A stretch of 58,382 nt of DNA from positions 1-58,382 of the IMG/VR virus record IMGVR_UViG_3300036792_000539, one strand, 5' to 3'. A program made the translations under genes and the position numbers. Under the pieces are notes generated by a model, which was given only the letters and a program-made list of their open reading frames with translations, was not told the DNA's origin and searched no databases. The stretch comes from a virus. Position 1 is the stretch's first letter. Every line of letters begins with the position of its first letter. Of the stretch, positions 4,250 to 58,382 are shown piece after piece.

Positions 4250-4672
4250 CTAGGAATTCGTTGTCGTACCGGTACCGGCAGAAGCAGCTGCAGCAGGGAT
4301 CGGGTTGAATGTAAACTTGCTGGCTACTGCAACCGGAGGAGGAGGCGGCGGAGGCGGCGTCACCGGTGCGGTAAAGATCAGGATGCCGGAGCTGGTCGGT
4401 ATAGGATTACCATTCACATCCTCGGCATCGAAATTGATCTGGCCGTCGCTGGCTGATCCCGGAGTATTCTCCGTGACCACAAAATCTTCTTCATCGGAAG
4501 GTGTCGAAACGGTGAATCCCGGAGGATTACCGCTGGGGCCCGGGACGACCGTGTACTTGCAGGATCCGCTTTTGTAAGCTGAATTGGGAAGCACGTTGTC
4601 GCCGGAATCGAGCGGCGCATTAAAACCTGATACGGGTGTGCCTGATGGCACGGTTAAAGTAGGCGCATTCAT
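4250..4672 (-). CDS. Hypothetical protein with proline tract, 140 aa
   Basis: A 140-residue protein rich in Ser, Thr, Pro and Gly with a run of eight prolines near residue 107 and an Ala/Gly/Thr tail. No family recognised. The low-complexity make-up suggests an extended or virion-associated protein. The frame stays open upstream to an ATG at 4831. The AT-rich stretch just before 4672 makes the shorter form more likely, but the longer one is not excluded. Confidence 0.5.
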   Translation of the reverse strand: MNAPTLTVPSGTPVSGFNAPLDSGDNVLPNSAYKSGSCKYTVVPGPSGNPPGFTVSTPSDEEDFVVTENTPGSASDGQINFDAEDVNGNPIPTSSGILIFTAPVTPPPPPPPPVAVASKFTFNPIPAAAASAGTGTTTNS

Positions 4673-4842
4673 TGCTGAAAATTTTAAAGTATTAATAATA
4701 AAAGTGAACCGTGATTGATGTGCGGGATGCGGCTGATGGCGGCGGTGAAAGTGTTCATGCAATTCCGCCTTCGCCTTTCGGATATCCCTTTTACAGGTCT
4801 CTATCCACTCCCTAATTTGTTGTTCGAGCATATTGTCAGTTT

Positions 4843-5912: not shown

Positions 5913-6299
5913 TTAGATGAAGGGTTGAATAACGGCGAAAATCACCAGGGCCAGGATCTCGATGATCCATGTCCGGGCGCCGAATAGGCGGAGCTCGATC
6001 TTATCCTCAAGGGAAGTCGACGAAAGACTGATATAGGTCCAGGATAGCCCTCGGAAACGGTTGAGGGCGACATTAAATACCGTCAGCCGACCCGCTCCCT
6101 GCGCAATGCCGTAGAGCATGAACTTATACCATGGGACCAGGGAGCCGCATACCCACCAACCCGCCGCAAGGATCAGTAAGGCATAGGCGGCCGCCCATAG
6201 TCCGTGATAGATCGGCCGGTTATTTTTTATCAACCGGCTTTGCCAATAGGCCATCCCGACCGTTATGACCAGGAGGATAAGTTCGGATAGGTACACCAT
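5913..6299 (-). CDS. Membrane protein of the lysis region, 128 aa
   Basis: Three hydrophobic segments are visible: about residues 4-18, 36-54 and 110-126. The ATG at 6299, next to the stop of the preceding gene, is preferred to a longer overlapping start. It lies directly before the endolysin, so holin or lysis regulator is a fair guess, made from context only. Confidence 0.6.
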   Translation of the reverse strand: MVYLSELILLVITVGMAYWQSRLIKNNRPIYHGLWAAAYALLILAAGWWVCGSLVPWYKFMLYGIAQGAGRLTVFNVALNRFRGLSWTYISLSSTSLEDKIELRLFGARTWIIEILALVIFAVIQPFI

Positions 6300-12645: not shown

Positions 12646-15432
12646 TTAGTGTACATATCCTTGGGCAATAATCCACCGGGCTATCGCATAATCGCACGCC
12701 CCAGTGGGGTGAATGTTATCGGCCTGCATCGGGCAGCCGCTGGTCCCGATGCTCTGTGTGTAGGTCCATACGTCAGCGAAGGTGATCCCCAGATCCGTGG
12801 CGATCTGCGACAGCGTCCCGGATGGCCCCGCCATCCCAGCCTGACAGGTTTGGGCGGAGTGATAGGGCGGAGACATGATGATGATCTTCGATCGAGAATA
12901 ACCGTAGTTGATTAACTTATTAATCTGCGCTTCATAGTCCAACTTCCAAGTTGTGGCATTGCTAACGCAGTAGTCGTTTGTCCCATATTCCAGCAAAACC
13001 CAGCCATTATTAGCACCGCGCATATAGCTCGATGTAGTTGCGAAGGCATTCGGCGGCGTGACGACCTTAGTCCCGGCGATCCCATAATTGAAGTAGTCCT
13101 TCCCGAGTGTGTCAGCGATGAAGTAGAGGAAACATGAATCGGCATTCCCCAGGCCATAGCCCGCCATGATGCTGTTTCCGAACCCGGCCAGAAAATCATT
13201 ATTGGCCAGCCCGTACTTCGTTTGGAGATAATCTCGTACACTCTTGTCATCGGCATCCTTGGGAATACCAGACACCACGATGCATTCCTCGATGTTGTAA
13301 TTGCAACCGCCGCCAGAAGTCGTCAGCCCCATATTGAATGCGGTCATGGCGCCGGTACCGGGGTTATTCGTGCCCAAATAATAGTAGATGTTCTTCAGCT
13401 CCTCATTCACTTCCACGCTGGAATTGGTGCCGTTAAATACCAATTTGAAAATCTGCCACGTACTGCGGGCATTCATCACGTCCTGGGTCTTCCAGTCGAC
13501 AGACGCTACAGCGCACAGCGTATATCTTCCCCTCGTATCCGGACCGGTGTAGGCGATGCCGTTGGTCGAGGAGGACCCGAATTGGAAGAGGTTGAGGTGA
13601 TTGCCATAGGTGACCCCCTGGACGACGATGTATACAGTATAGGGTTGTGACAGAGCAATCCCGCCCGAGACCGCCATCGTAGCGTTGGAGATGCTGACAT
13701 AGGGCAAATCGTTCGGGCCGCCATAATAGACAACGGTCGGAGATTTCGTGGTGTCCGACTGCGTGAGATTGTAGTTATTGCCGCTCTTGTCGTTGACCTG
13801 GGTGATCCGGGAGGCGCTTCCCGAGGCATTGACGGCGAGCGTAGATTGATCCTGAAAATCGTACCAGCAAACCAGACCGGGGATGTCCTTGGGGTTATAA
13901 TAGAAGGCGGCTTGAGTGGTTTGGTTAACGTTCAATATAATACTTCCCGGCTTCGAAGTCGTGTCTGCATTCAGGCCGCTACCGGCCACCACGGTTTTAA
14001 TGCTATCCGTTCCGGGCGTGGCAAGTGGAATGGCGCCTGCATTGCCCATTCCGCGGTTCAAAAGAGTGCCCCCAGAGGCACTAAGTGCGCCATTCACGAT
14101 CGCTAAATTGGCGCCTAAAGCTACTTTACGCACCGAGCTGTCCGCATCTTGAACGAGAAGGGAGCCTGCGGGTGTCGCCCAGGTTAGTCCCCTTAGCAAC
14201 ATACCGGTCCCAACGGAATCCAAAATATATTGCGCATTGGTCGCGCCGGCGGTATTACCGAGATTCTGGTAAACCGTCGAATCCCAATGACCGAAGGGAG
14301 AGCCGAGAGCAATGAGATTCAATCCATCCATGAACACTCCCCTTTTTGCATAAATATTAAACGGCGGGATGCCAGCGATCCCTTGCGCGACCGCCCGGTC
14401 AACATATAGATCATTAGCCGCTTTGGTCGTGCTATCATGCGCCGTCTGAGTCGGAACCGTCGGATTGCCGGTGAAGGAGGGCGAGGCAAGTGGCGCCTTT
14501 GCGGCCAGCAGGGCATTAACAACCGCCAGGATCGAGTCTACTACCTTTTGGCGAGAGGCCTGCGTCACATATCCCCCCGGATCCGTGGCGATACTGTCAT
14601 TGATTGCTTTCTTCAAGGCAAGTGCCGCATTGAAAATAGCCTGCAAGCTATCGGATACCTTTTGCCGGCTGGCCTGAGTCGTATACCCGCCTGGTGACGT
14701 GGCCGCGCTGTCCGATATATTCTTCTTCAGCACCAGCAGAGCATTGAAAATGGCCTGGAGACTGTCGGACAATTTCTGCTTCGAGGCCTGGGTGACATAA
14801 TTTGACGGCTTACTAACCCCGCTATCGGTAATCTGCTTATATTTTGCCACATTGAAGCCGTCGGTGTGGAAACCGCCGCCTTGTGAGGTGGCGGAGTCGA
14901 ATCCGGAGGAGATCAACCCGCGCAGCGACGCGGCGCTGTCGACGAGGGCGTTCCGAAGACTTGCTCCTGTGTCGATGACCCCCATCTCGGCTAGGGCGAC
15001 GTCCAAGCCGACCGTATCAATCCGGTGGGATAGATTCAGCGTATCTGATGGCGGTATGCCACCTCCGCCGCCTCCGGATGGCAGGATCTGGAAGAACGGC
15101 AGGTGGTGGATTGAATAATGGAGAGTATCGTTCGAAATATAAATAGTGTCCAGGAAAGAAGGCAGCTGGCTAAGCGGGACCTGCCCACCGGCTAAATTCG
15201 GAATAGACAGCCCAATTTGCGCGTTGATGGTATTTAGGACCTGCGTAGAATCCATGTTCAGCAGGTTGATCGCATGCATAGTGGCATTGAGCGTCTTGGC
15301 GGTGATTGCCCGGACACCATTGACGCGAATGCTGTCATTAATCTGCTGCTCTATCGCTGCCTTGCCTGCATCCTGGCCATGAACAGCTATGACCAGGAAG
15401 ACGGGAATAAAAAATATCAGTAGTTTCTTCAT
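12646..15432 (-). CDS. Secreted-type tail fibre with C-terminal SGNH esterase domain
   Basis: A 928-residue protein. A signal peptide (MKKLLIFFIPVFLVIAVHGQ) precedes a short conserved-looking collar (DSIRVNGVRAITAKTLN) and three tandem repeats of about 43 residues near 215-325. A lectin/LamG-like region follows (about 520-720). The C-terminal SGNH/GDSL hydrolase domain has GFGNSI near 750, EYGTND near 815 and DNIHP near 905, supplying the Ser, Asn and Asp/His of that family. SGNH domains on fibres usually remove acetyl groups from surface glycans. The ATG at 15432 begins the signal; a TTG lies six bases upstream. Confidence 0.75.
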   Translation of the reverse strand: MKKLLIFFIPVFLVIAVHGQDAGKAAIEQQINDSIRVNGVRAITAKTLNATMHAINLLNMDSTQVLNTINAQIGLSIPNLAGGQVPLSQLPSFLDTIYISNDTLHYSIHHLPFFQILPSGGGGGGIPPSDTLNLSHRIDTVGLDVALAEMGVIDTGASLRNALVDSAASLRGLISSGFDSATSQGGGFHTDGFNVAKYKQITDSGVSKPSNYVTQASKQKLSDSLQAIFNALLVLKKNISDSAATSPGGYTTQASRQKVSDSLQAIFNAALALKKAINDSIATDPGGYVTQASRQKVVDSILAVVNALLAAKAPLASPSFTGNPTVPTQTAHDSTTKAANDLYVDRAVAQGIAGIPPFNIYAKRGVFMDGLNLIALGSPFGHWDSTVYQNLGNTAGATNAQYILDSVGTGMLLRGLTWATPAGSLLVQDADSSVRKVALGANLAIVNGALSASGGTLLNRGMGNAGAIPLATPGTDSIKTVVAGSGLNADTTSKPGSIILNVNQTTQAAFYYNPKDIPGLVCWYDFQDQSTLAVNASGSASRITQVNDKSGNNYNLTQSDTTKSPTVVYYGGPNDLPYVSISNATMAVSGGIALSQPYTVYIVVQGVTYGNHLNLFQFGSSSTNGIAYTGPDTRGRYTLCAVASVDWKTQDVMNARSTWQIFKLVFNGTNSSVEVNEELKNIYYYLGTNNPGTGAMTAFNMGLTTSGGGCNYNIEECIVVSGIPKDADDKSVRDYLQTKYGLANNDFLAGFGNSIMAGYGLGNADSCFLYFIADTLGKDYFNYGIAGTKVVTPPNAFATTSSYMRGANNGWVLLEYGTNDYCVSNATTWKLDYEAQINKLINYGYSRSKIIIMSPPYHSAQTCQAGMAGPSGTLSQIATDLGITFADVWTYTQSIGTSGCPMQADNIHPTGACDYAIARWIIAQGYVH
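14500..14800 (-). repeat. Tandem repeats inside the SGNH fibre gene
   Basis: Three imperfect copies of about 129 bp encode units built on TQAS(K/R)QK(L/V)-(S/V)DS-(L/I), then Ala/Leu-rich helix and an SPGGY or DPGGY turn. Each unit probably adds one helical or coiled-coil step to the fibre shaft. Confidence 0.7.
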
Positions 15433-15434
15433 AC

Positions 15435-15830
15435 TCAATTATTGAAATCAGGACCAAAGTCCTGGTTAAAGTCTCCCGGGTTGTTACATTCGACGTCGAC
15501 GGTAGTCGTTCCGATATACACGCCGCCGGCGCCGATCCGGATGAAGGACTCTTGCCCGTTACCGGTAAAGGGATACATGGCATAGAACCCTTCTCTTGCG
15601 ATTTCATAGGCGGGTCCGGATAGGACGTAGAGAATATCGCCAGGGACCAAGCTGTTATACTGGGCGCTGAAGAGGAAGGCTGGATTATTCGACACAAATG
15701 ACGAATAGCAGTACATCTCCTCCAGTGCGGCGATCACTCCGTTTTCATCAGGATAGATGGTGGTAATATCCACCATCGCTCCGGTGCGGGAGTAAACGGT
15801 AGCCGTCCCGTTTACTCCACCGTAAAACAC
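15435..15830 (-). CDS. Hypothetical tail-region protein, 131 aa
   Basis: A 131-residue protein, mostly beta-rich, with no recognised motif, between the tail-tube-like gene and the fibres. The start is a GTG at 15830, inside the last codons of the upstream gene (19-base overlap), which suggests translational coupling. A baseplate or tail-terminator role is only inferred from position. Confidence 0.55.
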   Translation of the reverse strand: MFYGGVNGTATVYSRTGAMVDITTIYPDENGVIAALEEMYCYSSFVSNNPAFLFSAQYNSLVPGDILYVLSGPAYEIAREGFYAMYPFTGNGQESFIRIGAGGVYIGTTTVDVECNNPGDFNQDFGPDFNN

Positions 15831-46718: not shown

Positions 46719-47474
46719 TTACTTGATCGGGATTGGATTGACGGTCATGTTCTCCAGGTTCACATAGCAGCCATGGTGGCGGATGACGCCTTTGCGAAAG
46801 AGCTTCCATAGCAGCCCTGCTCCAAACTGCGCCAGCGTACTATTGATAAAAAGGTCCTGCCGGTTGATCGCCTGCGCGAGACTGCAGCTGGGCCCTTCAT
46901 CGACTTCTTTTAGTTTACTCAGCTGCGGGAACTTCTGTAGCACGGTCTTTAAGCTACCGGTTGTTCGCTTTTCGCCCGTTGGCTGCGGAGCCGGCTGGAT
47001 CGTTCCAAGGATGGCCTGCCCGGTCTCCTGTGCGTTGCCCATATCGAGCCAGTAGTAGGTGCGCTCGGTTGCGACACCCTTCCCCCTGGGCTTCAGCTGT
47101 GCTCCGATCTTTATGCGCCCGGCAGCGGTATCGATGCAGGTGATGATAATATTGGCCCCCTCGCTTCCGTCGAAGGCCCGGCTGTTGGCTTCCCAATCCA
47201 GACCAAAACAGCGATTAATCCGGCTGACCAGGACGAGCGCCTTATTCAGCCCGAGATCCGGCTCATAAAAAAGCTGCCGGGCAAGATTTGCTGCGGAGAC
47301 CACATCTGCATCCCAGGCGCGGATGTGAAGCCCAGGATGACCGAGCGCCTTTAGCGTCTCGTGCAGGCGCACGAGTTGGTTCAGCATCTGAGACCCGGTA
47401 CCGCCGAGGCCGACCAGGTGCACGGTGACCTTGTGCGCCGGATCCAGAAGATACTTTTGCGTATAATGGATCAT
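46719..47474 (-). CDS. PRTRC system ThiF family protein
   Basis: A 251-residue ThiF/E1-like protein. The nucleotide-binding start is HLVGLGGTGSQMLNQLVRL (about 20-38); later VVSAANLARQLFYEPDLGLNK resembles the ThiF Arg/Asp region, and TCIDTAAGRIKI the D-T loop. In PRTRC (ParB-related, ThiF-related cassette) clusters of plasmids and elements it accompanies proteins A-F. E1-like enzymes adenylate C-termini of small carrier proteins; a partner here is not known. It overlaps protein B by 4 bases. Confidence 0.85.
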   Translation of the reverse strand: MIHYTQKYLLDPAHKVTVHLVGLGGTGSQMLNQLVRLHETLKALGHPGLHIRAWDADVVSAANLARQLFYEPDLGLNKALVLVSRINRCFGLDWEANSRAFDGSEGANIIITCIDTAAGRIKIGAQLKPRGKGVATERTYYWLDMGNAQETGQAILGTIQPAPQPTGEKRTTGSLKTVLQKFPQLSKLKEVDEGPSCSLAQAINRQDLFINSTLAQFGAGLLWKLFRKGVIRHHGCYVNLENMTVNPIPIK

Positions 47475-50097: not shown

Positions 50098-51186
50098 TCA
50101 TTGTAGCATTAGTGGCATAATAAGTCCGAGATAATTGGCATCTTCCTCCGAGGTGATCACCACGCCGCGGTTGGGCCCGTCGATGTGAAGGAAAAGATCA
50201 TCGAAGGGCAGCTGCCCAAGTACCGTTCTCAGCAGCACCGGCGCCAGGGCGATCTGCAATGTCTTTCCCGCGTATTCACCGGGCATCGTAACGACAGAAT
50301 CGCGCCCCCGCTCTTCGCTGGCGGAGGCCAGCTTGAATCGCCCGTTCCGGCTTTCCAGAGGTTCAAATTGCAGCAGGATCTGTTTGTCATCCGTCAGCAG
50401 GCATTTATTAAGGGAGGTCATGAGCTGAAGCCGGCCGACTGTAAGATTTGCCTCGCTGTTGGGAATCACCACCTTCCAGTCCGGATACTTATCGCTGGAC
50501 CGGGTGCTGATGACAGTAATATGGTCCGCCTGAAACGCAACATGATGAGAATGCCAGCGGAGCGTTGTTTTCTCCAGGCCTTCCAGAGCAAGGCCGATCT
50601 TAGGGGAAACAAGGATGGTCTCCGTTGTCGGCACCCCCATCGGGAACCGGTATTTGAACAGGGCATGGGCATTCGTAGAGACGATCGTGATGGCATCAGG
50701 GGTTAGTTCAAGGCAGGCCTTGGTCATGGCGGGTCGCAAGTCATCCTTGGATGCGGTGGCCATGGACCGGAGAAGCCAGGTCATGAATTCCTCGTTCAGT
50801 TCCAGACTATTCTTTTTGGGGATGTCCGGAAGCTTTGGAAAATTGCCCACCTCCTCGAGTCCGGCAAGGTGGAAGACCTCGTCGGCGGCGGAAAACCGCG
50901 CCTTCTTGCCGTTCAGCTCGATCACCAGTGGCTGGTTTCCCAATAGGGGGACGAGCTTTGAGAGGAACTCGAAGGGAATAAGCATCTCAAACTCCTGGGC
51001 GCACTCACAGGAACAAGTATAGCTGATGGTCAGCTCCAGGTCCGTCGATATCAGCTCCAGCTCGTTCTTCCGCGCCCTGCAATAAAGATTTAATAACACA
51101 TCGAGCGCAGGTTTTTTGAGGACGGCCTGGCTTAGATGTCGGAGCGCCGGTTTGAGGCTCTCCGTCGAAATGATGACTTTTTTCAT
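50098..51186 (-). CDS. dnaN: DNA polymerase III sliding clamp (beta subunit), phage copy
   Basis: A 362-residue beta clamp with three domains of the usual length. It starts MKKVIISTESLKPALRHLSQ and ends in the clamp signature GLIMPLMLQ. Residues typical of the ring (LELISTDLELTISYTCSCEC, FPKLPDI) are seen. It would tether polymerase, and perhaps the recombination enzymes, to DNA. A viral dnaN next to PRTRC and RecT suggests the phage partly redirects host replisomes to itself. Confidence 0.9.
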   Translation of the reverse strand: MKKVIISTESLKPALRHLSQAVLKKPALDVLLNLYCRARKNELELISTDLELTISYTCSCECAQEFEMLIPFEFLSKLVPLLGNQPLVIELNGKKARFSAADEVFHLAGLEEVGNFPKLPDIPKKNSLELNEEFMTWLLRSMATASKDDLRPAMTKACLELTPDAITIVSTNAHALFKYRFPMGVPTTETILVSPKIGLALEGLEKTTLRWHSHHVAFQADHITVISTRSSDKYPDWKVVIPNSEANLTVGRLQLMTSLNKCLLTDDKQILLQFEPLESRNGRFKLASASEERGRDSVVTMPGEYAGKTLQIALAPVLLRTVLGQLPFDDLFLHIDGPNRGVVITSEEDANYLGLIMPLMLQ

Positions 51187-51780: not shown

Positions 51781-52071
51781 TCAGGTGAATTCATAGCGTT
51801 CGTTCTCTTTTACGATCGTTGTCTGGAAGGGGAAGGCTTCCTTTGGCACCCGTTCGATCATCTCCCGCAGCGTCGCTGATCCGGTAAAAATGACGTGCTG
51901 CGTCTCCCCGATCCGGATCTGCAAGTCCAGGCGATCGCCGTCGAACTTGGATTTCTCGATCTTGAAGGCTTCGACCGTGATTGACCGGTTGAGGATCCTG
52001 TCGATCTTGATTTTGTCGCCCACGAATCCTTTCTGGGCCGGCTTGATCCCGAATTCCTTGAAATTTCTCAT
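51781..52071 (-). CDS. Small protein overlapping the DGR reverse transcriptase, 96 aa
   Basis: A 96-residue protein starting MRNFKEFGIKPAQKGFVGDK, with IKIDRILNRSITVEAFKIEK, HVIFTGSATLREMIERVP and FPFQTTIVKENERYEF: a beta-rich small domain. As far as I recall, relatives lie next to reverse transcriptases in Bacteroidetes mobile elements. Almost the whole gene lies inside the RT open frame in another frame (281 bases), so it is either an overlapping accessory gene or the true C-terminal part of the RT reached by a frameshift. A longer in-frame ATG is at 52107. Confidence 0.7.
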   Translation of the reverse strand: MRNFKEFGIKPAQKGFVGDKIKIDRILNRSITVEAFKIEKSKFDGDRLDLQIRIGETQHVIFTGSATLREMIERVPKEAFPFQTTIVKENERYEFT

Positions 52072-53017
52072 GCAGTAAGGTTTTGAGTAGGTGGTTGCAG
52101 TCGGCATGGGCAGCCCAACCGTAATAGGATGCGACCGATTGAAGGGTCAGTCGACGCGCAACCATGCGCGCAAAATTCTTCTTGATGGATTTGCGAAGAA
52201 GCGTATGGGTAAGAAAGAACCGGTATCCGACAAAGTCGATGCCCCGGGCGGCGACGGGAAAGACCTGGTAATTGGCTTTCAGCTGCAGGCGCAAGTGGAC
52301 TTCGAGGTACTGGCGGATCTCGCCCAGCAACCGGTGCAGCGACGGCTTATTCGGGGCCAGGAAAACCATGTCATCCAGGTAGCGGAAATAATGCCGGACC
52401 AGCTTTTCTTCTTTCAGCCAGTGGTCAAAATAGGTCAGGTAAAAATTGGCGAAGTACTGCGACAGGTAGTTGCCGATCGGAAGACCCGGAGCGCTTTCGA
52501 TGATCTCGTCGAGGAGCCACAATAGATCAGGATCCTTGAATTTGCGGCGAAGCAGCCCTTTGAGGACGTTATGGCTGACCGAGGGGTAGAACTTGCGGAT
52601 ATCGAGCTTAAGACAATAGCGGGTCGCTTCTGGGTCGCGGAGGGCCCTTTTAACAGCCCTGGCGGCGCCGTGGATCCCGCGGCCGCGGATGCAGCTATAG
52701 CTATCGGCCGTATAGACGGCCCGGAAAATGGGCTCGAGGATGTTCAGGACCGCATGATGCAGAATGCGGTCAGGGAAATACGGCAGCCGGAAGATCTCGC
52801 GCTCTTTGGGCTCGTAGATCTTAAAGGTAATATAGGGGGATGTTTGGTAGGTCTTCGTCAGAAGCATTTGCTGAAGGCTAAGGAGGTTGGACTCAGCGCT
52901 CACCAGGTGCGCCTTCACGCCCGGCTGATGACTTTTGCCCTTGCGGGCCTTTTGGTCGGCCAGCCGGAGGTTATCCAGGCTGCAGATCTTCTCGTATAAC
53001 TGACCGATGCGCTTCAT
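51791..53017 (-). CDS. Diversity-generating retroelement reverse transcriptase
   Basis: A reverse transcriptase of 408 codons. The palm has the catalytic Asp139 in KLDIRKFYPS and YLDD at 213-216. The diagnostic DGR motif is IGNYLSQ at 181-187 ([LIV]GxxxSQ in place of the usual QGxxxSP), which is linked with adenine-selective infidelity. GYRFF (264-268) follows, and a thumb-like helix ends near residue 315. Residues 317-408 read Arg/Asp/Pro-rich nonsense and overlap the 96-aa gene, so the functional RT probably ends near 316. It starts directly after the template repeat and would copy the TR RNA into mutagenised cDNA. Confidence 0.95.
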   Translation of the reverse strand: MKRIGQLYEKICSLDNLRLADQKARKGKSHQPGVKAHLVSAESNLLSLQQMLLTKTYQTSPYITFKIYEPKEREIFRLPYFPDRILHHAVLNILEPIFRAVYTADSYSCIRGRGIHGAARAVKRALRDPEATRYCLKLDIRKFYPSVSHNVLKGLLRRKFKDPDLLWLLDEIIESAPGLPIGNYLSQYFANFYLTYFDHWLKEEKLVRHYFRYLDDMVFLAPNKPSLHRLLGEIRQYLEVHLRLQLKANYQVFPVAARGIDFVGYRFFLTHTLLRKSIKKNFARMVARRLTLQSVASYYGWAAHADCNHLLKTLLHEKFQGIRDQAGPERIRGRQNQDRQDPQPVNHGRSLQDREIQVRRRSPGLADPDRGDAARHFYRISDAAGDDRTGAKGSLPLPDNDRKRERTL

Positions 53018-53110
53018 CCTTTGCTGTTGGGGGCCCGCGTTCGCACATACAGCGCTACCGGCGGACCCGGTTTAAGAGACATTTTTTGCCATGCGGGCAA
53101 GGCTTGCGAG

Positions 53111-53123
53111 AACGATGATCGTT
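53111..53123. repeat. Perfect 13-nt inverted repeat beside the template repeat
   Basis: AACGAT-G-ATCGTT is palindromic around one base and starts 4 bases past the 3' border of the TR (coding sense). TTGC/GCAA lies around it and could extend the stem with a bulge. DGR RNA and target DNA often need hairpins near the repeats, so this is a candidate structure for cDNA priming or RNA recognition. Confidence 0.55.
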
Positions 53124-53127
53124 GCAA

Positions 53128-53194
53128 ATGCTGGGAGCTGCCGGTCGTGTTCGTGATGTCGTAGTTCGAATCGTTGAACCGGAAACTGGAACCA
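53128..53194 (-). repeat. DGR template repeat (TR)
   Basis: A 67-bp invariant donor sequence between the RT gene (starting 53017) and the stop of the first target gene (53231). Read on the minus strand it is rich in AAC and other A-containing codons: the in-frame translation near its centre is FRFNDSNYDITNTTG. Ungapped alignment with the two copies shows 12 (VR1) and 13 (VR2) substitutions, all 25 at template adenines; every G, C and T is kept. This is the defining mark of a DGR template. Confidence 0.95.
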
Positions 53195-53226
53195 CCCGCT
53201 CCGCCCTCGCGCCGCCTGTATCAGGA

Positions 53227-53240
53227 CCTGCTAAAGCAGG
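53227..53240. repeat. Hairpin at the stop codon of the first target gene
   Basis: CCTGC-TTTA-GCAGG, a perfect 5-bp stem with a 4-base loop, contains the stop codon of the VR1 gene and lies 66 bases after VR1. In the Bordetella phage DGR a hairpin or cruciform past the variable repeat promotes retrohoming; this is a candidate equivalent. Confidence 0.45.
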
Positions 53241-53713
53241 AACCGGTTATAGTGATCCAAGAACTGGGTTCCGACATAGTCGCTGATTCGCTTGGAGCAA
53301 AGGCGGAGCCGGGAGCCGCCGGTCGTGAGCGTGAGGGCGTAGTCCGAAACGAGGAACCGGAAACCGGAACCAGTGTGGACAAAATAGGGCGCCCATTTTT
53401 GCTGATTGTTATTCGGCGACCAGTCCCATTCCCATCCGGGAGGAAGGAACGCTTCTATCACTACCTTGAGCTGCTTATAGGCGATCTCATCAGACGTTCC
53501 GCTGTTCAGCTCCATATCCTGTGGATCATCGCCGGTGATCCGGCACGCCGCCTCAAAAGAGGGCACGAGCGGGATAATGTAATCCTCCCATTCCTTGATA
53601 TTGGTGTAAAAGGGAGAGCCGCCGAATAAATTATTTAGTGTAATTAAACCACCTTCGTCAGCCTCCTTATAGGCTTGCAAGACTTTTTCTTTTGGAATTT
53701 GAATCATATCCAT
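53231..53713 (-). CDS. DGR target protein 1 (variable protein), 160 aa
   Basis: A 160-residue soluble protein. The N-terminal 80 residues are helical. Residues 93-112 are Trp/Asn-rich (PGWEWDWSPNNNQQKWAPYF), followed by the variable segment (about 114-136: GFRFLVSDYALTLTTGGSR) and a helical end (YVGTQFLDHYNRFLL). Ten residues of the variable segment differ from the template translation: 117, 121, 122, 124, 126, 127, 129, 133, 135 and 136. It has no signal or membrane segment and lies between the RecE-like gene and the TR, so the diversified product acts inside the cell or is carried in the virion. I recall similar hypothetical proteins across Bacteroidetes, ending with GSRLC and Y-x-G-x-Q-F, of unknown function. 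Confidence 0.85.
   Translation of the reverse strand: MDMIQIPKEKVLQAYKEADEGGLITLNNLFGGSPFYTNIKEWEDYIIPLVPSFEAACRITGDDPQDMELNSGTSDEIAYKQLKVVIEAFLPPGWEWDWSPNNNQQKWAPYFVHTGSGFRFLVSDYALTLTTGGSRLRLCSKRISDYVGTQFLDHYNRFLL
53307..53372 (-). repeat. DGR variable repeat 1 (VR1)
   Basis: A 66-bp copy of TR positions 53129-53194 (offset 178) within the 160-aa gene. The 12 differences are all at template A on the coding strand, giving C, G and T as replacements. Examples are AAC to CTC, GAT to GTT, AAC to GAC and ATC to CTC. The homology ends sharply on both sides. Confidence 0.95.
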
Positions 53714-53732: not shown

Positions 53733-54404
53733 TCATGCGGCGCCCATCAGGCTTCCGAACAGCGTCGCATATTTAAAAGCCAGATCCTGGTATTGCGCTT
53801 TGCCTTCCTGGTAGTTGGCATCGCCTCGCCGGATCGGAACCTGGAAGACCCGGCAATTTTTTTTGCTGATCCCAATCAGCATATCGCGATCGACCCCTTC
53901 GATATCCATGTACCAGGCGCGTTGGCGGAAATATTCGAAGTAGTGGCAAGCCTCTTCGAATTGCTTCTGCGTCTCGGCCGTCGTGCTTTTGATGTCGCCG
54001 GAGATCTGGAGCTTCGGCATGGCGAAGAGGTCCCATTTGCACCGGACATCCAGCAGGAACCGGACGCCAGCATATTCGACTGGAAAGCCTCTTCGGATGC
54101 TGACCTTTTGGAACTCCGAATTTTGGGCCAGCAGCTTGCAAAAGGGTACCCGGTAAAAAGCCTTCTTCATTTCCTCGGCGAGTTCGAAATCTCCTCGGGT
54201 GTATTGATTTCCCGCACAGGTATACCGGAAGTAGTTCACCTTATGCGGCTCGGTGATCATGCAATCGATCAGGGTACCGAACCGGTAAGCGGCCTCCTTA
54301 TCGTAGCGAAGGATCTCCGGCTCCCAATAGCGCTTTAGATCGGAGAGATCGCTATTGCTCACCTCCGGCCGGCCGTAGTAGGGATCATTGACTTCCTCGA
54401 TCAT
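53733..54404 (-). CDS. RecE-like PD-(D/E)XK nuclease
   Basis: A 223-residue nuclease of the PDDEXK-like (DUF3799/RecE) group. Motifs in order are GTLIDCMI (43-50), Asp119 in FLLDV, GDIKST (136-141) with the D-x-K pair, and the helix segment FRQRAWY (159-165) that resembles the Q-x3-Y of lambda-exonuclease types. It would chew 5' ends of double-stranded breaks to expose single strands for RecT, encoded upstream in the same operon, in single-strand annealing of phage DNA. Confidence 0.8.
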   Translation of the reverse strand: MIEEVNDPYYGRPEVSNSDLSDLKRYWEPEILRYDKEAAYRFGTLIDCMITEPHKVNYFRYTCAGNQYTRGDFELAEEMKKAFYRVPFCKLLAQNSEFQKVSIRRGFPVEYAGVRFLLDVRCKWDLFAMPKLQISGDIKSTTAETQKQFEEACHYFEYFRQRAWYMDIEGVDRDMLIGISKKNCRVFQVPIRRGDANYQEGKAQYQDLAFKYATLFGSLMGAA

Positions 54405-56177: not shown

Positions 56178-57101
56178 TTAATAGGGTTGATCCGGATCGT
56201 CATCGAAGCTGACCGTGCGACCATTCAGCTTCGATTCGTGAGCGGAGTGAGAAGGAACCACAGCAGCCGGTTGTTGCGCGGTAGGCGAAGCGTTCTCCGG
56301 ACTGAATGGTTTGGTAGAGTTTGCAATTACCTCCGGACGCACCGGCGCGCCAGAAGGCGACTCGTCGTCGACATCCATCTCGACGTCCGTGAACTGCTCC
56401 ACGTTGGCCGGCGTGGTACCAATAGCCCAATGCTTCGCCTTACAGGCGTGAAGGGTGATCTTGGTCTTGAGGAATTCCGGTTGAGGTTGCTGTGAGCCGT
56501 TGTGGTTCCAATTGGGGCCGTCCTTCATCTCCGATTTCTGCCGCCAGGATTCCCAATCGCTCTTGCGGAAGGTGGCGAATAGATCCCTGCCATTCTCATC
56601 CAGCTCAAAGCGGATGTAGCCTGCGATGATGATATCGGTCTGGAAGTTCTCCTGGTGGCGCAGGACCCGACCTTTCTCCACCTGGTAGATATCGCCCTGA
56701 TAAACCAGGACGGGCTTGTCGGCACTGAGGATCTGGCCGGAGCGCTTCAGCTTGCGGATATAGGCGCCGGCTTGCCGCTGCAGAACGGCCTTGCCGCCGC
56801 GGGGAACAATATAGACCTCGTCATCGGCGGGATCGAGGCTGTATCCATTGACGGCCGCGGTCGCGAACACGGCATAAAGGCTGAAGGGATCGCAGTTGCG
56901 CAGCTTCTCGCTGGCGGAAAGTATCTGCTTGAAATGGATGACATTTCTATGGTACATCATATCGCCCACCTTTTCGCGGTGGCAGGCGTTGTAGTTACGG
57001 ATGTATCGGTCACGCACGAAGTCGAGCTCACCGATCGCCGCAGGAGGCGTATTGGCAAGGACCTGCGTGATGCTGTTTTGCGAATTTGTTACGTTTGACA
57101 T
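56178..57101 (-). CDS. recT: RecT-family single-strand annealing protein
   Basis: A 307-residue protein of the RecT/Erf-type annealing family. The core (about 30-230) has the expected segments: FKQILSASEKLRNCDPFSLY, AVFATAAVNGYSLDPADDEV, YIVPRGGKAVLQRQAGAYIR and DIYQVEKGRVLRHQ. A Ser/Pro/Asn-rich tail follows, ending FDDDPDQPY. RecT binds single strands and pairs complementary ends. It is first in the recombination operon, behind a terminator-like hairpin that may attenuate it. Confidence 0.9.
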   Translation of the reverse strand: MSNVTNSQNSITQVLANTPPAAIGELDFVRDRYIRNYNACHREKVGDMMYHRNVIHFKQILSASEKLRNCDPFSLYAVFATAAVNGYSLDPADDEVYIVPRGGKAVLQRQAGAYIRKLKRSGQILSADKPVLVYQGDIYQVEKGRVLRHQENFQTDIIIAGYIRFELDENGRDLFATFRKSDWESWRQKSEMKDGPNWNHNGSQQPQPEFLKTKITLHACKAKHWAIGTTPANVEQFTDVEMDVDDESPSGAPVRPEVIANSTKPFSPENASPTAQQPAAVVPSHSAHESKLNGRTVSFDDDPDQPY

Positions 57102-57559: not shown

Positions 57560-57706
57560 CTAACCACCGATACCGGTGTCGGTGGGGTCCTATAGACGGC
57601 CATTCAGAAATAGACAGCAGGCTCTTAAATATTTTGATCCAAAGAACTTTTTTATAAACCCAGGCTTGGGAACAGGCCCGGCATAACGATTACGTGCCTA
57701 TGAAAG

Positions 57707-57772
57707 TGGAGGAGCAGGGATTCGAACCCTTGTCTGGCGCGCGCCGTCCCTCCGCCTTTCGGATACTCCCCC
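57707..57772 (-). ncRNA. tRNA-like structure without an anticodon arm
   Basis: A 66-nt minus-strand element. GGGGGAG (57772-57766) pairs with CTCCTCC (57714-57708) as a full 7-bp acceptor stem, and a T arm AAGGG-TTCGAAT-CCCTG and discriminator A follow. The D-arm slot holds TCCG-AAAGG-CGGA (5-base loop). The stretch where the anticodon arm should be (19 nt, GC-rich) has no 5-bp stem with a 7-base loop, only a GGC/GCC mini-hairpin. It is too short for a normal tRNA. It may mimic a tRNA end (processing signal, decoy for aminoacylation) or be a decayed tRNA. Confidence 0.55.
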
Positions 57773-58079: not shown

Positions 58080-58382
58080 TCAATTTTCAATTTCCTCAGT
58101 CGATGCCGCTTTTTTTATAGCGGGCAGCTGGCCACCGCAGAAGTCAGCCCAAAGGGCAATGCACTCGATGGCGAAAAAGTCCTGATCATCCACAGAGAAA
58201 GTGCAAAGCCGGGAGCCGCCGGACGAGTACGTGAGGCCGTAGCGCGAATCGCCGAACCGGAAACCGGGGTCATTCATCAAAAACCAGCTTCCATATTTCT
58301 CTTCGCTGCGGTCATTCCAGTCGGCGACCCGCCGGCTGACCAGTGCCTTTCGGATTACTTCCAGCTGGAAGGAGACAACTGG
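58080..58382 (-). CDS. DGR target protein 2 (variable protein), N-terminus cut by window
   Basis: The last 100 residues of a second target gene. It matches target 1 in its scaffold: QLEVIRKAL, DWN, then GFRF, S-x-Y-x-L-T and GGSRL around the variable segment. Its C-terminus (DDQDFFAIECIALWADFCGG) is different and longer. Its own values at the variable positions (G, D, R, G, L, Y, S, S) differ from target 1, so the two proteins have been diversified separately from the one template. The N-terminus and start are beyond 58382. Confidence 0.85.
   Translation of the reverse strand, partial: PVVSFQLEVIRKALVSRRVADWNDRSEEKYGSWFLMNDPGFRFGDSRYGLTYSSGGSRLCTFSVDDQDFFAIECIALWADFCGGQLPAIKKAASTEEIEN
58205..58267 (-). 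repeat. DGR variable repeat 2 (VR2)
   Basis: A 63-bp copy of TR positions 53127-53189 (offset 5078). The 13 differences are all at template A on the coding strand, for example AAC to GGC, AAC to CGC, AAC to TAC and ACG to TCG. It lies 5 kb upstream of the template in the direction of transcription. Confidence 0.95.

Follow-up and report, generated by a model that had tools for sequence, protein, structure and literature searches.

The window that we analyzed, a stretch of 58,382 bp corresponding to an entire IMG/VR record, carries a genuine and complete diversity-generating retroelement (DGR) of known type. We are highly confident that this element belongs to a temperate phage of Bacteroidota, pairs its reverse transcriptase (RT) with a predicted OB-like protein that would replace Avd, and diversifies two small target proteins that are probably not part of the virion. 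The accessory gene and the small, probably non-tail targets set this DGR apart as a variant. A complete DGR had been proposed in the initial annotation of this sequence, and the RT family and the adenine-only changes of two variable repeats (VRs) confirm it. The coordinates given there for the RT open reading frame (ORF), the template repeat (TR) and the 160-aa ORF hold, and the inventory of RT, TR and VR1 was correct, but it listed neither the second VR nor the accessory gene. The cassette and its neighboring genes are as follows:

50098-51186, minus strand: sliding clamp (DNA polymerase processivity factor), context gene; PF00712; PHROG 947, E = 1.5e-41
51781-52071, minus strand: conserved accessory gene whose 96-aa product (pI 9.3) has a predicted OB-like fold; it overlaps the 3' end of the RT
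51791-53017, minus strand: DGR RT ORF, 408 aa; PF00078 (RVT_1), E = 2e-14; PHROG 1423, E = 5e-124; best PDB match 8ub7
53018-53127, minus strand: spacer RNA between the TR and the RT, whose stems covary and which is distantly related to Rfam RT-17; model match at 53013-53145, 71.7 bits
53128-53194, minus strand: TR, rich in AAC/AAY-type codons
53231-53713, minus strand: target protein 1, 160 aa, acidic (pI 4.8), PHROG 11581, carrying VR1
53306-53372, minus strand: VR1, 12 differences, all at adenines of the TR
53733-54404, minus strand: RecE/exonuclease VIII-like nuclease, context gene; PHROG 412, E = 6e-14; DUF3799 below threshold
56178-57101, minus strand: RecT single-strand annealing protein, context gene; PF03837, E = 6e-15
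58080-58382, minus strand: target protein 2, same family (PHROG 11581), truncated at its 5' end by the contig boundary, carrying VR2
58205-58267, minus strand: VR2, 13 differences, all at adenines of the TR

Upon ungapped realignment, the TR and VR1 differ at 12 positions and, as had been reported, every one of these is an adenine of the template on the coding strand, with no change at C, G or T. An unbiased match/mismatch scan delimited a 65-nt core that contains 16 template adenines; all 11 mismatches of this core fall on A (chance P = 4.9e-9) and the 12th difference lies just outside of it. A search for direct repeats identified a third copy at positions 58195-58267, which includes VR2 proper, and all 13 changes of VR2 are likewise located at template adenines (chance P = 2e-10). 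VR1 lies within the open 160-aa ORF and ends approximately 25 codons ahead of the stop; the gene carrying VR2 is also open and is cut at the contig end.

Four of the 12 changes of VR1 are identical in VR2: one A>G change at the 5' end and three changes at the 3' end, where GGC AGC TCC CAG CA in the template becomes GGC GGC TCC CGG CT (A>G, A>G and A>T), encoding a GSRL motif. Among the VRs of relatives that bear this motif, which itself served to locate the site, the Gly and Arg codons present G where the template has A in 96 of 96 and 92 of 92 cases, while the adenines of the core change freely to any of G, T and C. The four shared changes are therefore best read as fixed boundary, or IMH/IMH*, differences rather than as products of random mutagenesis, which would leave about eight freely mutated sites in VR1 and about nine in VR2. 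The earlier interpretation of all 12 substitutions as mutagenic events thus stands with respect to their adenine specificity, but four of them look fixed. The 3' end of the VRs accordingly presents an IMH that differs from the IMH* of the TR, as judged from the sequence pattern. In addition to this difference and to the adenine-only TR/VR pair, the window presents an RT of the DGR clade, a VR near the C-terminus of its target and a structured spacer; the bAvd gene of Avd-type (BPP-1-like) elements is absent from it.

The RT is conserved over residues 1-319 (approximately positions 52061-53017). The usual stop is missing, and the remaining ~89 residues of the ORF read into the accessory gene, which is encoded in another frame. 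The initial description of the RT as intact holds for its catalytic part but calls for caution as regards the ORF, which runs past the end seen in the family: the RTs of relatives are mostly 316-322 aa long. We first obtained identities of 50-60% to relatives over "residues 1-408"; this extent reflects the overlap with the accessory gene and was discarded, because most of these RTs stop near residue 319. The closest solved structure is 8ub7 ("Reverse transcriptase", E = 2.6e-45), which we take to be the RT of BPP-1, and the next is a group II intron RT (E = 1.1e-16). In a quick tree (support 97, with long branches flagged), group II intron and Drt3a RTs are separated from a group that contains the window RT together with those of BPP-1, ANMV-1, crAss and hankyphage. 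The IGNYLSQ motif had suggested a DGR-type RT, and the PHROG 1423 match, the 8ub7 match and the position of this RT with BPP-1, outside the group II intron RTs, all agree with this assignment.

The 110-nt spacer between the TR and the RT is a covarying, structured RNA. We built a model from 52 sequences, including the window; the spacer aligns over these 52 loci and all 11 predicted pairs covary. Paired cells amounted to 93%, relative to 72% in shuffled alignments and 34-45% when the alignment was slid, and none of 500 shuffles attained the observed values. The model also matched beside the RT in 35 of the 36 genome loci outside the model-building set and gave weak matches in crAss DGRs. Rfam RT-17 (RF03020) occupies the same place ahead of the RT and scores 20.4 bits on the window copy, relative to a cut-off of 40.4 bits; one relative (L046, positions 763-844) exceeds its gathering score. 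RF03020 itself seems to represent the template spacers of one lineage of DGRs. In Rfam, the equivalent position is occupied by Phage_DGR in BPP-1 and by RT-3 in hankyphage. The spacer of BPP-1 serves both to recruit the RT-Avd complex and to prime cDNA synthesis (PMC12875486), and we infer by analogy that the spacer RNA of the window may play a similar role.

The mechanism of DGRs is known mainly from BPP-1, in which Avd is indispensable. The Avd model PF22296 (bAvd) matched BPP-1 and none of the 49 other records searched, including the window. (Pfam PF05635 had been tried as an Avd model and was replaced by PF22296, its negative result being discarded, because it missed the Avd of BPP-1 itself.) What follows the RT in the window is instead the accessory gene, which matched no Pfam or NCBIfam model. 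Homologues of this gene were found in 67 (tblastn) or 69 (profile) of 80 loci selected by their RT. The RT is directly upstream of it in 119 of 122 loci, nearly all of which were collected through the accessory gene itself; the three exceptions are a contig edge, a partial match and locus L188. The gene is present as a single copy in every searched record that has it and its products are basic (median pI of 9.0). Among 67 BPP-1-like loci, Avd was detected in 61 and the accessory gene in none, and LBR48-like loci have neither as a rule (Avd in 0 of 38, accessory gene in one of 38). The contrast between the clade of the window and the BPP-1-like loci yields a Fisher P of 1e-30, an optimistic value since the loci are related. 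One Dyadobacter genome (L205) contains a target gene at position 4473 and a partial accessory gene at 6001-6114 with no RT, and looks like a decaying cassette.

The linkage of the accessory gene to the RT extends beyond this clade. The archaeal viruses ANMV-1 and vir525 possess a homologue after the RT (E = 7e-21 and 5e-24, respectively), in tail-module settings. In hankyphage p00 (L214), the domain is fused to the C-terminus of the RT (residues 327-432; HMMER E = 8e-15; hhalign probability 98.4%, E = 8e-15), and in BI-TP1 (L247 gp9) it lies in the last frame of a frameshifted, split RT (E = 1.6e-5); both of these DGRs are tail-targeting. Several other candidates were rejected: Bbp4, the BPP-1 gene overlapping brt, did not match the accessory gene; the separate gene following the hankyphage RT is not the homologue, which is the domain inside the RT; and the C-terminus of the LMMB RT was not supported by profile comparison, although a crAss RT appeared in the fold search.

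The AlphaFold model of the accessory protein (pLDDT 88) has the element order b-b-b-a-b-b, and it is predicted to be OB-like, an OB fold being defined as a five-stranded barrel with a helix between strands 3 and 4. Its fold matches in PDB include many OB-type nucleic-acid binders, all of them weak (best E = 0.11). In BFVD, a single match reaches E <= 1e-3, a phage RT protein (TM 0.70); a crAss RT and ssDNA-binding proteins rank lower. We did not detect the accessory gene in some relatives with adenine-only VRs (L035, L040, L064, L070 and L073), so it may be non-essential or have a substitute that escaped detection. Three DGR accessories have been named, Avd, HRDC and MSL (PMC10053308). We propose, based on these sequence comparisons, that the present gene represents a putative fourth type that stands in place of Avd and probably acts in the DGR. 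A literature search, conducted mostly on non-subscription text without supplements, returned nothing relevant on an OB-fold or ssDNA-binding DGR accessory; priority is therefore uncertain.

Searching with the RT of the window drew 80 viral loci. In nearly all of them the template precedes the RT by ~106 bp, with between one and four target genes (median of 140 aa, typically 8 bp apart) upstream. We pooled 124 distinct TR-VR pairs, in which adenines were changed in 64% of cases and C, G and T in 0.5-0.7% each; pairs were kept only if at least 70% of their mismatches were at A, and the values of the window are independent of this selection. The accessory gene additionally led to 39 bacterial genome loci, all but one of which belong to Bacteroidota in the wide sense (including Ignavibacteria), and this supports the assignment to Bacteroidetes made initially. 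Of these loci, 36 have an RT and all 36 present adenine-specific repeats. The DGRs of relatives are naturally active, since near-identical phages differ almost only at template adenines: of the 13 differences between L023 and L025 over 6,861 bp, 12 fall on TR adenines within a VR, and of the 21 between L035 and L036, 20 do so and one lies elsewhere. The window copy is probably active too.

The prophage origin initially suggested is supported by the left end of the window (positions 1-2552), which contains a host-type fatty-acid hydroxylase gene, a tRNA-Lys (1110-1183) and a divergent ORF of 419 aa whose C-terminus is tyrosine-recombinase-like and which has no Pfam match. This region likely represents the host flank, the attachment site and the integrase of the prophage. 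At the other end, transcription proceeds from target 2 through RecT, a 508-aa protein, a small ORF, the RecE-like nuclease, target 1, the template and the RT to the accessory gene, with the sliding clamp further downstream. The gene order of L047 matches that of the window (RecT, 508-aa protein, nuclease, targets and RT). We also observed a tmRNA/tRNA-like element of 69 nt whose acceptor stem spans 7 bp (57704-57772, minus strand; Rfam tmRNA at 28.8 bits, under the cut-off) and a ThiF/E1-like protein within the phage early region (46719-47474, minus strand; PF00899).

A profile built from target relatives identified exactly two members in the record, targets 1 and 2. Searches with the peptides of the target itself found no homologues because the family is too divergent, whereas the sequence of a relative succeeded as a query. 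No relative of the target fold was found in PDB, and the VR segment is poorly modeled (pLDDT of ~57). The targets of this family are 120-180 aa long without a large N-terminal module, and those of the window adjoin the RecT/exonuclease and clamp genes. In relatives, the genes nearby encode MuB, DUF3164, a primase and an AAA ATPase, and those for portal and neck proteins are transcribed in the other direction; many of these relatives are Mu-like, in that MuB and DUF3164 lie upstream and the oppositely oriented portal and neck genes are those of Mu. Two tandem targets are fused into one ORF with two VRs in L058 (1603-2313) and L196 (near 4251-4759). An unannotated fragment of the small-target family also lies at the right end of the hankyphage-like BT-TP2 (L245, 5001-5201), near the integrase and the repressor, and is possibly a lost second target.

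The gene gp84 of BI-TP1 is a homologue of the window targets (E = 1.7e-27) with 12 of 12 changes at adenines over 107 bp, and it is located among methyltransferase genes and a tRNA ligase. We take BI-TP1 to be Quimby-like as judged by its gene order and frameshifted RT, which is not a formal classification. A non-structural DGR target has been described in Quimbyvirus (PMC8008677), and the homology and setting of gp84 fit this target, which favors a cytoplasmic role over receptor binding. Both targets of the window are thus probably not tail proteins, and we think that a role in the cytoplasm, perhaps in counter-defense, is likelier than receptor binding.

It is nevertheless conceivable, if unlikely, that this is an ordinary receptor-binding DGR whose small targets belong to the tail and adjust adsorption to the host surface, in the manner of Mtd in BPP-1. 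Most phage DGR targets in clades 1, 4 and 6 are indeed tail proteins (Roux 2021, PMC8144416), crAss relatives target large tail proteins, and a tail protein of L078 weakly shares the VR motif with PHROG 11581. The small size of the targets and their recombination and early-gene neighbors argue against this scenario, as does the methyltransferase rather than tail setting of the BI-TP1 homologue. Moreover, the tail-fibre-like protein of the window, which carries a GDSL lipase domain (12646-15438, minus strand), contains no VR. We consider it quite unlikely that the accessory protein is simply a neighboring ssDNA-binding replication protein of the phage, unrelated to the DGR. Its OB-like model and the replication and recombination genes around it would fit such a protein, but it accompanies the RT into the tail modules of ANMV-1 and vir525, is single copy in each searched record that has it, was detected in none of the 67 Avd-type loci, and is either fused to the RT (hankyphage) or continues it in frame (BI-TP1).

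The loss of the RT stop raises the question of decay, in which past diversification was real and the copy is now dead. The 408-aa ORF is what speaks for this scenario, and we judge it improbable: the catalytic YLDD and IGNYLSQ motifs, the TR, the spacer RNA, the VR1 target and the accessory frame are all conserved and open, and four relatives with long read-through RTs (L039, L046, L058 and L082) keep adenine-specific VRs. Finally, the best NCBIfam match of the RT is a group II intron model, far under its cut-off, which could point to a retron or group II intron RT flanked by chance repeats. The wide gap between the two best structural matches, the tree and the chance probabilities of the VRs (P = 5e-9 and 2e-10) leave this reading with practically no credence; the adenine-only repeats and the placement of the RT refute it.

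Comparison with characterized systems places the window DGR among known elements while indicating where it departs from them. BPP-1 (mtd, avd, TR and brt) shares the RT, the TR, the adenine-only VR changes and the succession of template, structured spacer RNA and RT; it differs by possessing Avd rather than an OB-like protein, a single large tail target, a TR of 134 bp (~67 bp in the window) and a spacer RNA that belongs to a different family. Bacteroides hankyphage (phage p00) likewise represents a DGR of a Bacteroidota phage with the same accessory domain, although RT-fused, but it has one large C-type-lectin target and the RT-3 spacer RNA. Its repeats are 117 bp long (PMC6199706). The Quimbyvirus, LoVEphage and BI-TP1 group (Benler 2021, PMC8008677) is similar in having a non-structural target among methyltransferase genes, with the gp84 homologue and the accessory domain of the split RT in BI-TP1; in these phages, however, the other target is a tail protein, the RT is split over frames and the TR exceeds 100 bp. 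The ANMV-1 virus (Paul 2015, PMC4372165) shares the accessory homologue directly after the RT and differs in being an archaeal virus whose large target, AdtA, is encoded close to tail fibre genes. The published figure of this element indicates an Avd ORF (PMC4372165), whereas the bAvd model detected no Avd in this record. Rfam RT-17 (RF03020) shares the position before the RT, with the window copy falling under its cut-off.

Taken together, these features suggest how the element could operate. The RT would copy the template transcript, which carries the structured spacer RNA on its 3' side, making errors at adenines. The small basic OB-like protein would partner with the RT, standing in for Avd, and may hold the template RNA or the single-stranded cDNA, such that the two proteins acting on the spacer RNA would produce mutated cDNA. 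This cDNA would then replace the VRs of both small target genes by retrohoming, perhaps with the assistance of the phage's own RecT. The targets, small and probably non-virion, would be expressed from the recombination module, presumably act in the cytoplasm, and carry a scrambled loop that would vary what they bind. On a wider scale, we tentatively consider it possible, though somewhat doubtful, that in one DGR lineage of Bacteroidota phages, which has relatives among archaeal viruses, an OB-fold protein or an RT-fused form of it takes over from Avd in handling the template or delivering the cDNA, and that this lineage diversifies small, early, cytoplasmic targets, possibly against variable host defenses.

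An RT-linked, OB-like replacement of Avd, occurring in some elements as a separate overlapping gene and in others fused to the RT, would make the task required of the DGR accessory testable and could yield a compact, one-protein mutagenesis tool. The homology of the small targets to the only non-structural target of a phage DGR that we found reported suggests that phages also scramble proteins other than their tail fibres.
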